Assembly (NCBI RefSeq): GCF_001050195.2
Contig: NZ_DF967965.1
Location: forward strand, 1,753,150-1,817,149
Direction: 5' to 3'
DNA from: Anaerolinea thermolimosa
GTDB lineage: Bacteria > Chloroflexota > Anaerolineae > Anaerolineales > Anaerolineaceae
Length of the DNA: 64,000 nucleotides
The translations under genes and the position numbers were made by a program. This document shows, in pieces, positions 50,258 to 55,654 of this stretch (position 1 is the stretch's first letter; each line of letters starts with the position of its first letter). The notes below the pieces were generated by a model that saw only the letters and a program-made list of their open reading frames with translations, ran no database searches and was not told the DNA's origin.

Positions 50258-53200
50258 TTAGGGAGAAACCATCTTTCGGGTACTCTGTCTGAATACTCGC
50301 GGAGACATTCCCACTATCTTTGTAAATACCCGTGTGAAGTAAGCCGAGTCATTAAAACCAACCCGAATGGCAATTTCCGTAATGCTCTCACTCGAATGGG
50401 TGAGCATCTCCTTTGCTTTGACAATTCTCAATCTGCTCAAATAATCCCAGGGAGTCGTATGCATCTCGTTTCGGAATATCTGGCTGAGGTAATTCTCACT
50501 CACACAAACGGCTTCAGCAATCTCTTTCCGGCTGATGGTGTGATGAAAATTCTGATGGATGAAAGCCAGCGCTCTCCGTACCACTTCGCTGGTGTGAGAT
50601 GGGAAGCCCGACTCACATACGGCTTCTGGCTCAAAAATTTTTAACAACTCCTCATCCTCCAGAATTCCCTTGGTTACCAGTCCTGCCTTCAGCCCATTGA
50701 TACGCCCGATATCTTCAAAGGTTAATAACTTACCACTGCAAATCAGCACTGGAATGTTCTGTGTCCGCGGATTTTTCCGGACCTCATCAAGCACGGTGAA
50801 ACCATCTACTTCCGGCATCATCAAGTCGAGCAAAATAAAAGCCGGAGCTTCACTCTCAAGCATTTCCAGGGCAATCCGTCCATTCGAAGCGAAGAGGATA
50901 CGCCTGCCAGGGTATCGACGCTCAAGGAGTTTTTGGTAGTACTTTCGGGCATTCTCATCATCATCCACAACAAGAATAGGTTGTTGTGCTTCTTCAGCGG
51001 GAGCCATCTGGCTCACCCACTCGAGAACAGTATTACCCGACACAGGCTTATAAAGGATATTGGTAATCTGCTCGCCCTCAACAGATGATCGGTCTTCCCC
51101 GCCATCAAAAAGGATTACAGGCAGAGCTGTCCAATCCTGCTGTTTACTTAATTGTTGAATGATTTGCCAGTCTCGCCAGCACGAACCGTGAAGATCCCAG
51201 GCAATAGCCTGAGGCGCACCTTCAGCAAGCATGGCTGATAAATCGCTCATTCCCCGAATCTGCCTGGCGACCAACCCTCGTCGCTGGCATAAACGGATGA
51301 TTCCAGCTGGAATCTGCTCCCGGGTAGATACCACTAATAGAATCGACGGCGCAGATGAGTTATCCTGACGCACTACTGGGCGAGAAATCCCTGGCAGCGG
51401 CAAGTACACATGAAAAGTACTCCCAACCCCGGGCTGGCTTTCAAGGGTTAACAACCCGTCATGCAGGGCTACCAGATGCCGCGTAATGCTTAACCCCAGG
51501 CCGATCCCCTCTGGCCGCCTTTTACGATTGACACTACCAAAAGGCTCAAATATCTTCTCCTGTAATTCCAAGGGAATGCCCGTTCCAGTGTCTTCCACCC
51601 AGATATGAAGGTACGGCGGTTCCACATCGGCCCCCAATCGGATGACCCCACGTGAAGTGAATTTACGGGCATTGACCAGCAAATTAGTCAACACCTGCCT
51701 GAGTCGAACAAGGTCAGCTCGGATGGTCGGTAAATCATCTGGTACTTCTATTTCCCATTGAACGTGAGGATTGGCCGGTTCCGATTGTTGTACTCCGGTA
51801 AAAACCTCCCTGAGAAAAGGCGCAGGTTGAATTACTTCAAAATAAAGGTTCAAAGCACCGATCTCCGCCCGCGAGAGGTCTAGAAGATCGTTAATCATAT
51901 ACATGAGGTGTTCACCGCTTTTATATACATTGCGGATATCACTCTGTAATTCTTGCGCATCCTGTTCAGAGGGTGGCGACTTTAAGCGTTGTTCAATGGA
52001 CTGACTAAACCCAAGAATAGCGTTTAGTGGAGAACGCATTTCATGACCAACGTTCGCAATCAGCCGTGTTTTTAACTGGTTAGCTCGCTCGGCTGCCTCT
52101 CGGGCCTGCAGCGCTTCAAGGTACAGGTCGGCGTTTTGGATTGCGATGCCTAGCTGGCTGGAAAGCAACTTTAATCCCATGATTTCCAAAGAGGGTTGTC
52201 GTATGGGCTCAGAAGACTGCAAGTCGAGGACACCAATCACAGCCCCTCCGAGGAAAATGGGTAATACGGCCCGTGAACGCACCTTCTGCCACTCTTTACC
52301 GAAGCGCCACGAATGTGAGGTTCGCGTATCTGGAATAAAAATCGGCTGATGATGTTCGAAAACCTGTGTAATAAGCGGGTCTTCTGAAGCCGGGACAAGC
52401 CTTGCAGAAGGAGAAAGATCACCACCGTAAAAAATCAACCGTTTCTCTTGATCCGACCAGCGAAGGATTCTTACCCATTCGTAACCAAAATGATGCCTGA
52501 CCGCAGAAGCGAAAACCTCCACCAATTTTTCTCTTTCCAGCAACGAGCCAATTTTCTGAGAAATATCGGTAATCGCTTCCAGTTGCACCAGTCGATCATG
52601 TTCCTGTTGCCGGCTATATCCGACAAGATAACTCGGGAGGTCTGCAATCAATGTTAATTTTCGCGTTGCCACATTAGCGACATTGTCCCGGGTAATCAAC
52701 TGGAAAGTTTGCGGAAGGTGAGGTGGAAGATCTTCACCGTGAGCGGCCTTCCAGGCAAGGTCAACTGCTGCAACCCCCATATCTTCCGCAGCAATATCCA
52801 CTGTTGCCGACAGAGAACCCTCAGCTACCCCTGAGAGGGCCAGAGGATCGCCATTGAGGCCGACAAGTATGGTTCGATCGTCAACCACACTGGTTTTTCG
52901 TCCGGCATCTCTAGCAGCCAGGATCAGAGCATCCGACACCCCAAAAATTGCATCATACCGCTGGCGAGCGTGAGAAAACTTGTCCAGGAGGACAGAATAT
53001 GTTTGCTGGTAAGTCCAGAACGCGGATATCGCCTCGACCTCAACATTGGAATATTCCTTCAAGCCATCCTGAAATCCCTCTAACCGGCTTATACCCTTAA
53101 TGGGAATGGCCTCCTGTCCGGCATAGACACAGAGGACTCGTTTTTTATTGCCTAACCTGCTCCCCACATATTCACCTGCCAGTTTTCCACCCGGATATAG

Positions 53201-53554
53201 ATCGGTCATGGCAGTCATTAAAGAATGGATGGGTTGGATCTCAGCCAGACATATTACAGGAATACCTTCGCTAAACATACCGAGGAGAAATTCTTCGGTA
53301 GCCAGGGTACAAATCAAGGCATCGATCCCGTAAGCCAGCACCTGATCGACGAGAAAGTCTGAGGGAATCTCGAGTAATTCCTCAATAGTGGAAGCCGGAT
53401 GAAGCACCACCAGATCTGCCCCTCGCCGTTGATTGGCGTGAATAACGGCCTCATACACCTGAACCCAGAAAGGATCAGTGGGAATGATAATCACCCCAAC
53501 TCGCGGGATAAATTTCTGACTTTGAGAAAGGTGGTGGGAAAGTGAAACAGTCAC
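50258..53554 (-). CDS. cytosolic hybrid sensor: LacI-type binding domain, GAF, histidine kinase, two receivers, AraC output
   Basis: The 1098-residue protein has no signal peptide or membrane helix. Residues 17-300 are a LacI/periplasmic-binding fold (RVGVIIIPTDPFWVQVYEAV, GGKLAGEYVGSRLG, ILVGLNGDPLALSGV). Residues 330-475 look like GAF. HisKA has NVGHEMRSPLNAILGF with H504, then HATPase with NARKFTSRG, EDTGTGIP and GIGLGLSITRH. The first receiver (735-850) lacks the acidic pair; the second (859-970) is complete, with D910 in FILLDLMMPE. An AraC domain (990-1095) has ISRKEIAEAVCVSENYLSQIF and ITEIAIRVGFNDSAYFTRVF. The start is GTG, six bases after TATAAT. It probably senses an imported ligand and controls the Opp operon downstream. 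Confidence 0.92.
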   Translation of the reverse strand: MTVSLSHHLSQSQKFIPRVGVIIIPTDPFWVQVYEAVIHANQRRGADLVVLHPASTIEELLEIPSDFLVDQVLAYGIDALICTLATEEFLLGMFSEGIPVICLAEIQPIHSLMTAMTDLYPGGKLAGEYVGSRLGNKKRVLCVYAGQEAIPIKGISRLEGFQDGLKEYSNVEVEAISAFWTYQQTYSVLLDKFSHARQRYDAIFGVSDALILAARDAGRKTSVVDDRTILVGLNGDPLALSGVAEGSLSATVDIAAEDMGVAAVDLAWKAAHGEDLPPHLPQTFQLITRDNVANVATRKLTLIADLPSYLVGYSRQQEHDRLVQLEAITDISQKIGSLLEREKLVEVFASAVRHHFGYEWVRILRWSDQEKRLIFYGGDLSPSARLVPASEDPLITQVFEHHQPIFIPDTRTSHSWRFGKEWQKVRSRAVLPIFLGGAVIGVLDLQSSEPIRQPSLEIMGLKLLSSQLGIAIQNADLYLEALQAREAAERANQLKTRLIANVGHEMRSPLNAILGFSQSIEQRLKSPPSEQDAQELQSDIRNVYKSGEHLMYMINDLLDLSRAEIGALNLYFEVIQPAPFLREVFTGVQQSEPANPHVQWEIEVPDDLPTIRADLVRLRQVLTNLLVNARKFTSRGVIRLGADVEPPYLHIWVEDTGTGIPLELQEKIFEPFGSVNRKRRPEGIGLGLSITRHLVALHDGLLTLESQPGVGSTFHVYLPLPGISRPVVRQDNSSAPSILLVVSTREQIPAGIIRLCQRRGLVARQIRGMSDLSAMLAEGAPQAIAWDLHGSCWRDWQIIQQLSKQQDWTALPVILFDGGEDRSSVEGEQITNILYKPVSGNTVLEWVSQMAPAEEAQQPILVVDDDENARKYYQKLLERRYPGRRILFASNGRIALEMLESEAPAFILLDLMMPEVDGFTVLDEVRKNPRTQNIPVLICSGKLLTFEDIGRINGLKAGLVTKGILEDEELLKIFEPEAVCESGFPSHTSEVVRRALAFIHQNFHHTISRKEIAEAVCVSENYLSQIFRNEMHTTPWDYLSRLRIVKAKEMLTHSSESITEIAIRVGFNDSAYFTRVFTKIVGMSPRVFRQSTRKMVSP

Positions 53555-53796: not shown

Positions 53797-54049
53797 CAAA
53801 GGACATCGTCCCCTTTCGGGGGTTCGAACCTCTGCAGGTTTAAAAAAAAGGCTGGGGGGCAAAGGACACCGTCCCCTTCCGGGGGTTCGAACCTCTGCAG
53901 GTTTAAAAAAAGAGGCTGGGGGCAAAGGACACCGTCCCCTTCCGGGGGTTCGAACCTCTGCAGGTTTAAAAAAAGAGGCTGGGGGCAAAGGACATCGTCC
54001 CCTTCCGGGGGTTCGAACCTCTGCAGGTTTAAAAAAAAGAGGCTGGGGG
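53797..54049 (-). repeat. four tandem 63-64 bp units carrying copies of the tRNA-Gln 3' end
   Basis: Units start at 53797, 53860, 53923 and 53986 and are nearly identical; the outermost (53797) differs most. Read on the minus strand from the tRNA, each unit is a T-run, AAACCTGCAGAGGTTCGAA, a GC-rich hairpin insert (CCCCCGGAAGGGGACGGTG), and TCCTTTGCCCCCAGCC. The first and last parts equal the T-arm, acceptor 3' strand and flank of the adjoining tRNA-Gln, so the array derives from its 3' end. Because the unit is 63 bases, both strands appear as 120-residue open frames (repeating FKPAEVRTPGRGRCPLP and KGHRPLPGVRTSAGLKK), which I regard as artefacts. Confidence 0.85.
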
Positions 54050-54113
54050 CAAAGGATTCGAACCTCTACAAACAGATCCAGAGTCTGCTGTCCTGCCATT
54101 AGACGAGCCCCCA
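54043..54113 (-). tRNA. tRNA-Gln (anticodon CTG)
   Basis: The minus strand folds as a tRNA: acceptor TGGGGGC with GCCCCCA, D-arm GTC-TAATGGCAG-GAC, anticodon stem GCAGA/TCTGT with loop CTCTGGA (anticodon CTG), and T-arm AGAGG-TTCGAAT-CCTTT, with discriminator G. The TGGGG start and CCCCA-G end are typical of tRNA-Gln. The next bases are CCT, so CCA is not encoded and must be added. It lies 35 bases after the gltX stop on the same strand. Confidence 0.92.
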
Positions 54114-54148: not shown

Positions 54149-55654
54149 TTAATTCTTCAAGGTTTCCTCTCCCCTTAAAATTGCAATCGCCTTTTCTATC
54201 CTCTTCAAAACCTTATCATGCCCAATAATTTCCATACTTTCAAAAAGGGGTGGACTCACTTTTTGACCGGTCACAGCCACCCGAAGAATACCGAACACCT
54301 GTCCAGCAGTTAATCCCAGAGACTCCACCAGGGCCCGCATAGGAGGTTCCGCCTCTTCCACCGTCAAACGTGGTAACCCCTTTAACACCTGATAGCATCG
54401 TTCCGCCACATCCGCTGATTGTTCAGCGGTCAACCCCTTGGCGATGAGATCCTCTCGGAGAGGGTGAATCTCTTCCTCAAAGAAAAACCCGGCAAACTGC
54501 ACCACTTCATCCAGAGTACTCAAACGTTCCTGGATTAATGGGATAATCCTCAACAGGAGACTGTCATCTACAAAATAACCTGCTCGCACCAGGAAAGGCT
54601 TTACCCTCCTCGCCAGGTCTTCCCGCTCCAGCCGACGGATATGGAGACCGTTAAAATGATCCAGCTTGGTAAAGTTAATCGCGGCTGGAGAAGGGTTAAA
54701 CCGATCAACAGAGAATTTCTGGATTAAATCATCCATGGTAAAAAACTCTGTCTGATCATCATAACTCCATCCCATCAAAGCAATCCAATTCACCACCGCC
54801 TCAGGAAGATATCCCAGCTCCGCAAGGTCTTTAATATAAATTGAAAATCCGTCTTTCATCGCATCAGCGGCATCCCGCTTGCTCATCTTTCCTTTACCGC
54901 TCGGTTTAAGAAATACCGATAAGTGATAGAACCTGGGCATTTCCCATCCGAAAGCGCGAATAATTAAACCGTGTAAGGGAAACGTCGGCAACCATTCTGA
55001 GCCACGCAAAACATGCGTGATTTTCATGAGATGATCGTCAACCATGGCCGCCAGATGATAAAGGGCAAGCCCATCTGATTTCACGATAATATAATCATCA
55101 AGCAACCGGTTTTCAACCGTGATCTCCCCCCTGATTTCATCCATCACTGTGGTCGTTCCTTCTTTGGGGGTTTTAAAGCGAATGACGTGTTTTTCACCAC
55201 GTGCAACTCTTTCTGCCGCCTCCTGAACATCCAGTGTTCGGCAGAGTCCGTCATAGTGGGGATTCTCTTTACGTTGTTGTTGCTCCTGGCGCAGCTTCTC
55301 AAGGCGCTGGGGAGAACAAAAACAATAATAGGCATGTCCACTCTCGATTAACTGCCTGGCATATTCCTGATAAATGGCTTTCCGCTCAGATTGGCGGTAG
55401 GGCCCGTAAGGCCCACCAACATCGGGGCCTTCATCCCATTGCAGTCCCAGCCAGTGCATTCCATCAATGAGCTCCTGCTCCGCTGTAGGTACGTAGCGTT
55501 TCTGGTCGGTATCTTCAATGCGCAGGATGAACTGGCCGCCAGTCTTTCGCGCCAGCAAATAGTTATACAGGGCCATTCGCCCGCTCGCCAGATGCATACG
55601 CCCCGTCGGAGAAGGCGCAAAACGCACCCTCACCGGTTGTTCAATACCTGTCAT
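54149..55654 (-). CDS. gltX: glutamyl-tRNA synthetase
   Basis: The 501-residue protein has the class I HIGH region FAPSPTGRMHLASGRMALYN, LRIEDTDQKRYVPTAEQE near 40, YHLAAMVDDHLMKITHVLRG near 197, and KMSKR in SGKGKMSKRDAADAM near 257, with the anticodon-binding domain after 330. It charges tRNA-Glu. In organisms without GlnRS it also charges tRNA-Gln, and no glnS is seen here. The tRNA-Gln gene directly follows on the same strand. Confidence 0.96.
   Translation of the reverse strand: MTGIEQPVRVRFAPSPTGRMHLASGRMALYNYLLARKTGGQFILRIEDTDQKRYVPTAEQELIDGMHWLGLQWDEGPDVGGPYGPYRQSERKAIYQEYARQLIESGHAYYCFCSPQRLEKLRQEQQQRKENPHYDGLCRTLDVQEAAERVARGEKHVIRFKTPKEGTTTVMDEIRGEITVENRLLDDYIIVKSDGLALYHLAAMVDDHLMKITHVLRGSEWLPTFPLHGLIIRAFGWEMPRFYHLSVFLKPSGKGKMSKRDAADAMKDGFSIYIKDLAELGYLPEAVVNWIALMGWSYDDQTEFFTMDDLIQKFSVDRFNPSPAAINFTKLDHFNGLHIRRLEREDLARRVKPFLVRAGYFVDDSLLLRIIPLIQERLSTLDEVVQFAGFFFEEEIHPLREDLIAKGLTAEQSADVAERCYQVLKGLPRLTVEEAEPPMRALVESLGLTAGQVFGILRVAVTGQKVSPPLFESMEIIGHDKVLKRIEKAIAILRGEETLKN

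Follow-up and report, generated by a model that had tools for sequence, protein, structure and literature searches.

The 3' ends of tRNA genes are classic landing sites of phages and genomic islands, and some integrative elements use them as attachment sites. The known system nearest in layout to the arrays described here is RtT (Rfam RF00391, rttR) of the tyrT/tyrV locus of Escherichia coli, whose annotated copy number varies among E. coli records. In PMC2965389, rtT-like elements of enterobacteria are assigned to the BIMEs, and BIMEs are cited as terminators and attenuators; PMC12306157 counts rttR of E. coli among the REP-holding sRNAs. The array behind a tRNA-Gln gene of Anaerolinea thermolimosa shares the basic feature of RtT, tandem repeats behind a tRNA gene that contain the tRNA 3' end. 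Together with similar arrays at other tRNA genes, it seems to represent a poorly known type of non-coding DNA element that targets tRNA ends. No account of such arrays in Chloroflexota was found in a literature search that left most subscription papers outside its reach.

The tandem array behind tRNA-Gln

The window, that is the whole 64-kb stretch of DNA analysed, contains a sole tandem array according to Tandem Repeats Finder (53797-54056, minus strand; period 63, 4.1 copies, 96% matches, score 474), the units of which are 93-96% alike from end to end. It begins directly after an intact tRNA-Gln with the anticodon CTG on the same strand (54041-54113; ARAGORN, and Rfam RF00005 with 56.8 bits). 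The tRNA is preceded by a gltX-like gene for a class I Glu/Gln tRNA synthetase (54149-55654, minus strand; Pfam PF00749 and PF19269), a match to which was present in 40 of 41 genomes, A. thermolimosa counted among them. Tandem 63-bp units contiguous with a complete tRNA-Gln, as described in the original prediction, were thus recovered by Tandem Repeats Finder, ARAGORN and Rfam.

The units read, without exception, AGAGGTTCGAA, then CCCCCG(G/A)AAGGGGACG(G/A)TG, then TCCTTTG, followed by CCCCCAGCC and a T-run in all of them except the unit farthest from tRNA-Gln, which ends at TCCTTTG. They had been read as tRNA 3' ends copied with a hairpin inside the T-loop, and this interpretation is supported; the acceptor strand and T-run that had been ascribed to every unit are present in the others and missing behind the farthest one.

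Each unit can be divided into X, a copy of the 11 nt preceding the insertion point; I, a hairpin of 18-20 nt with a short tail; Y, the tRNA tail copied from the T-loop onwards; and Z, a spacer, often with a T-run or a terminator. In the window, all on the minus strand, the tRNA is followed by a Z spacer with a run of eight T, read from the sequence (54023-54040). In unit 1 the 11-nt copy X of the tRNA, AGAGGTTCGAA, lies at 54012-54022, the 19-nt hairpin insert I at 53993-54011 and the tail copy Y, TCCTTTGCCCCCAGCC, at 53977-53992. A T-run spacer (53960-53976) leads to unit 2 (X, 53949-53959; I, 53930-53948; Y, 53914-53929) and another (53897-53913) to unit 3 (X, 53886-53896; I, 53867-53885; Y with one extra C, 53850-53866). 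Behind the last T-run spacer (53834-53849), unit 4 consists of X (53823-53833), I with the loop GAAA (53804-53822) and a Y cut off after TCCTTTG (53797-53803), where the array ends. By manual reading, the 11 nt preceding the hairpin, AGAGGTTCGAA, are identical to the tRNA and the twelfth is mismatched; the hairpin lies six bases deeper in the T-loop than at the 39 loci surveyed below.

Folded as single strands, the four units were no more stable than shuffled sequences (z from -1.33 to +0.51), so the distinctive trait of the array is its repeated layout. A 72-nt query gave matches at E <= 0.001 in the A. thermolimosa genome only to the four window units, and CCCCGGAAGGGGAC, with up to one mismatch, occurs in this genome only at the window array and at one other place. 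The minus strand of the window also encodes, at 50258-53554, a 1098-aa protein composed of a sugar-binding-type sensor, GAF, histidine kinase, receiver and AraC helix-turn-helix domains.

Arrays and their units in A. thermolimosa and its relatives

Rfam identified 51 tRNA genes in the A. thermolimosa genome, the surroundings of which were retrieved; 47 are distinct, and the other four duplicate some of these. Hairpin units stand behind 14 of the 51 genes, representing 11 species: Ser(GCT) and Ser(GGA) with two loci each, Ser(CGA), Lys(CTT), Arg(GCG), Val(CAC), Asn(GTT) with two loci, Gly(TCC), Arg(CCT), Glu(TTC) and Gln(CTG). The array at tRNA-Gln exists as proposed, but its layout is not specific to this tRNA. 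The total is 53 units: a regular expression counted 54, but the match at L165:3258 falls outside the array, and units cut off before the T-loop were excluded. Six loci (Arg GCG, Val CAC, Asn GTT, Gly TCC, Arg CCT and Glu TTC) were found via their tail copies alone, with no hairpin pattern applied, and still have the C/G-rich stem and the tail TGNTA. The duplicated Ser GGA loci carry two and six units, respectively. The Ser(TGA)-Ser(GCT), Ser(GGA) and Asn(GTT) loci occur together with their arrays as duplicated segments (L165, L167, L200/L201). Repeats that differ from the hairpin arrays were noticed at tRNA-Arg(TCT) and tRNA-Lys(TTT) (L185 and L183): these are direct repeats several hundred bases apart, which start in the tRNA near the anticodon and continue downstream.

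In 1.354 Mb of A. thermolimosa DNA, roughly a third of the genome with a few stretches overlapping, the strict hairpin motif had two locations, a tRNA array and a site that lacks a tRNA; the window units, which have another tail, escape this motif. Dispersed copies unrelated to tRNA genes, the finding that would have spoken against the original prediction, were thus not encountered in the DNA scanned apart from that one site. Comparison of seven A. thermolimosa arrays gave 0-7 variable columns of 18-20 in I and 0-9 of 20 in Y; higher conservation of I than of Y is therefore not a constant feature.

The anatomy of the unit was studied at 39 loci, retained from 45 detected tRNA-unit pairs after six spurious ones, in which the 'unit' was a neighbouring complete tRNA-Ser, had been dropped; for one of the 39 (L176) the wrong unit was probably chosen. 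The detector used the first 14 nt of Y, and X played no part in it or in the patterns. It missed the window array, G001 (in which the hairpin, read by hand, also lies 6 nt deeper in the T-loop), G022 (L180) and L229. The repeating part may be written as Y-Z-X-I, Y being the replacement tRNA tail; it contains no gene and is mostly 58-110 bp long, with one f12 unit of about 240 bp. The stem has five pairs in register in 29 loci and four in 10, with an inner C4/G4 almost throughout and an outer pair that is T-A in 25 loci, C-G in five, G-C in one and an unpaired C/A in eight. G and T of the hairpin tail are fixed in 39 of 39 loci; most of the tails read TGNTA, three read CGNTG and one reads GGTTC. 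This conservation of stem and tail is partly built in, since most loci were found by C4/G4 patterns and some also by the TGNTA tail. The loops differ in sequence and length, and their sharing within genomes was not significant, with 13 of 87 pairs identical (permutation p 0.20; f12 alone, p 0.07; loops entered by hand, with the trailing G trimmed).

The X copy has a sharp boundary. Its identity to the tRNA is 0.62-0.95 at positions -1 to -11 and 0.03 at -12, staying near the control beyond; the control with other tRNAs gave 0.22-0.81, high only where all tRNAs agree. At least seven of the 11 positions match in register in 33 of 39 loci, whereas the next 11 positions (12-22) reach this level in none of the 39; five of the six remaining loci attain 7-9 matches after a shift by one base, and one fails. 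In 20 of the 39 loci the spacer ahead of the first insert contains a terminator hairpin, and nine others have a T-run no more than 4 nt from the tRNA end. For the remaining 10 the script detected neither; at least one of these (Glu TTC) shows a terminator by eye. The arrays end variously inside X, I or Y. Some units at L172, L175, L234 and L249 carry a second hairpin-like insert in the acceptor part, with tails resembling ATGCTGCG.

Within the genus, the unit pattern was matched in two of five genomes, and G001 has a single 74-bp unit behind gltX-tRNA-Gln; at the same place several relatives have, as judged by eye, a hairpin and T-run of the usual sort. Among 147 genomes of the family, 15 contained matches to a general pattern (T-arm, 25-55 nt, CCCCGNNNGGGG), and two genomes matched its reversed control. 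The matches inspected, which leave out G004, G005 and a second G001 match, include tRNA-linked units in G000, G007, G022, G430, G432, G451, G468 and G480, at tRNA-Ser, Lys, Arg, Gly and Glu, and units at contig edges with no tRNA in view in G434 and G481. Matches of another nature were those in G006 (a terminator), G424 (no tRNA) and one in G451 (CRISPR-like).

The stricter combination of hairpin, tail and TTCRA, which is likely to miss arrays, was found in 21 of 396 genomes of the class, and in none with the reversed control (the 64 A. thermolimosa matches include overlapping ones). Twenty of the 21 belong to the same order, of which 37 members were sampled: three of 11 in family f1, 17 of 24 in f12 and none of two in others. 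A tRNA lies upstream in all 20, with one or two loci inspected per genome; no tRNA was seen in the 21st genome, G395. Units situated at contig ends (G003, G434 and G481) suggest that short-read assemblies undercount the arrays.

Genome contigs were also scanned for a T-arm followed by CCCCGNAAGGGGAC, a pattern blind to the commoner GGGGATG form. Of the 11 stretches obtained, two are Anaerolineales arrays (L124 and L134), and the other nine were classified by eye as one CRISPR-like stretch, two single hairpins behind tRNA genes and six stretches without a called tRNA. A one-unit DNA search of the 396 class genomes returned mostly short weak matches, and none of the 29 loci examined showed an array; five hold a tRNA somewhere. 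The G007 and G049 matches stem from this search, the latter being a CRISPR array (L079, G049:C31) whose repeat has the core CCCCGGAAGGGGAC in common with the hairpin. There were five matches in viral contigs, with no tRNA called in any, none in plasmids and short ones at E 0.8 in eight phage records.

Possible origins of the arrays

The explanation tentatively preferred, at a probability a little short of even, is that the arrays are a family of short non-coding elements, which insert at the T-loop end of tRNA genes and are later changed by unequal exchange. Repeated insertion at tRNA 3' ends had been among the readings first offered, and it is the preferred one. Entry would occur by recombination between the X-I-Y junction of a copy, perhaps circular or perhaps linear, and the X-Y of a tRNA, which would regenerate the tail. 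Insertions breaking the tRNA would be lost through selection, and unequal exchange between the Y/Z repeats may make the arrays grow and shrink. Recognition of the element probably lies in the hairpin and takes place at the DNA level, so that no product would be needed. A second copy of the tail keeps the tRNA intact, the hairpin stands wherever two copies join, and removal of a Y-Z-X-I stretch leaves a normal tRNA.

This explanation is favoured by the same hairpin at the T-loop behind 14 of 51 tRNA genes of 11 species, by the six loci that fit although no hairpin pattern was used to find them, by the tRNA upstream of the loci inspected in 20 of the 21 class genomes with the stricter pattern, by the sharp end of X at 11 nt and by a pair of E. 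coli strains that differ by exactly one unit, while the unequal Ser GGA loci argue for changes in unit number. Between tyrT and tyrV, E. coli K-12 has one RtT unit and SK1144 none, the tRNA being intact in both. BLAST of the K-12 spacer against the SK1144 stretch gave no match. The sequence behind the K-12 tail copy resembles that behind the SK1144 tRNA, with 15 nt identical and then small differences. The pair is not polarised, since a unit lost by exchange between two tail copies would yield an identical empty site, so either state may be the older; moreover, the RtT insert is another sequence. The non-significant sharing of loops within genomes also speaks against the explanation, as does the negative outcome of the search for a Y1-type mobilising enzyme. 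A pair of empty and occupied sites was not found inside Anaerolineales, for which insertion is presumed by analogy.

Local tandem duplication without any mobile element is a rather unlikely but substantial alternative. Slippage or template switching would copy the tRNA tail and terminator, and the hairpin would be a by-product or a break-prone expansion junction. The units do bear the X and Y of the local tRNA, the arrays stop at various points of X, I or Y, and the first and last spacers are alike in several f12 arrays (L239-L241), as plain local duplication would give and as speaks against insertion. However, such duplication does not account for the occurrence of a single hairpin type at the T-loop of many tRNA species in two families, for the 11-nt X regardless of tRNA class or for the E. 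coli spacer Z, which is unlike the native flank. Slippage alone, as suggested in the original prediction, therefore does not explain one hairpin at one site across many tRNA species.

It is unlikely that the units are trailer RNAs of the RtT type, transcribed with the tRNA and processed to small RNAs acting as decoys or sponges. They lie on the tRNA strand and have the layout of E. coli RtT, which is annotated as an sRNA, but the terminator hairpins and close T-runs found before the first insert in 20 and nine of the 39 loci should halt many transcripts, single window units fold no better than shuffles, and the RtT model gave no match at its gathering threshold. Quite improbable, too, is the reinforcement of termination, for which tail-terminator units would be kept to stop read-through from strong tRNA promoters. 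Terminators differing in sequence recur in the units of many f12 arrays, and BIMEs, to which rtT-like elements are assigned, are cited as terminators and attenuators in PMC2965389. Yet this leaves the tail copies, the 11-nt X and the hairpin unaccounted for, and in 10 of the 39 loci the script detected neither a terminator hairpin nor a T-run.

REP elements moved by a RAYT, another of the initial suggestions, are highly improbable. Like the arrays, REP elements and BIMEs have a short GC-rich hairpin with a fixed foot, and rttR is listed as REP-holding in PMC12306157. All 21 pattern-positive genomes and 251 of the 375 others have a Y1_Tnp match, but within the order it fails to discriminate (20 of 20 against 14 of 17). 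Unlike REP elements, the arrays are tied to tRNA tails, the hairpin is hardly dispersed between genes in the third of the genome scanned, and no intact RAYT with an HUH motif, as judged by eye, was seen in the A. thermolimosa genome. The single Y1_Tnp match of this genome most likely corresponds to a 480-aa protein encoded beside polA (L317:8143-9585), which has a Y1-transposase-like C-terminal domain (Pfam E 3e-11) and no HUH motif by eye; from its sequence it seems not to be an active transposase and has perhaps been domesticated. No hairpin of this kind lies near it, and the search for a mobilising enzyme, which covered Y1-type helpers, found none.

That the hairpin is a CRISPR repeat which Cas1-Cas2 placed at tRNAs, or which serves as a short guide directed at tRNA, is hardly credible: the core shared with the G049 repeat, which at first looked telling, and a weak Rfam match to CRISPR-DR30 (19.5 bits against a cut-off of 50) are opposed by the repeats near two A. 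thermolimosa Cas1 loci and near the G007 Cas1, which look unrelated by eye, and by the tRNA copy that takes the place of unique spacers between hairpins.

Comparison with known systems

The window array resembles CRISPR arrays in its regular direct repeats with a hairpin, as well as in the similar core of one CRISPR repeat. With tRNA-integrating elements the arrays share a tRNA tail that is both restored and present as a direct repeat, the intact tRNA being accompanied by the Y copies. They differ in being short, gene-less and located at many tRNA species of one genome, with units too short to hold a recombinase gene. Possibly, if somewhat doubtfully, the arrays represent a class of gene-less integrative elements for which the T-arm is the attachment site. 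The site would consist of the 11-bp left arm X and the tail Y, and the hairpin I would fold out so that X and Y resemble an intact T-arm; RtT of E. coli would be another lineage of this class, whose range would then cross phyla and which would have escaped notice because only the tRNA is seen in annotation. A gene-less hairpin that marks one spot behind many tRNA species and obeys an 11-nt rule calls for an unknown recombination process.

The RtT covariance model, applied at its gathering threshold to 18 loci, gave four matches in the K-12 locus and none in the 17 Anaerolineales loci, and no match was obtained in the window stretch up to E 5. RtT also differs from the arrays in being linked to one tRNA species, in its spacing of 178 and in its insert of 65-70 nt of other sequence. 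What the two have in common is their position directly behind a tRNA, units that each end in a tail copy and a copy of the T-arm with a hairpin-rich insert in the T-loop; in K-12 the tRNA copy before the insert comprises 9 nt in a row and a match at position 11. The arrays give a frame for the RtT repeats of E. coli, which vary in presence and number between strains and can be studied in thousands of genomes.
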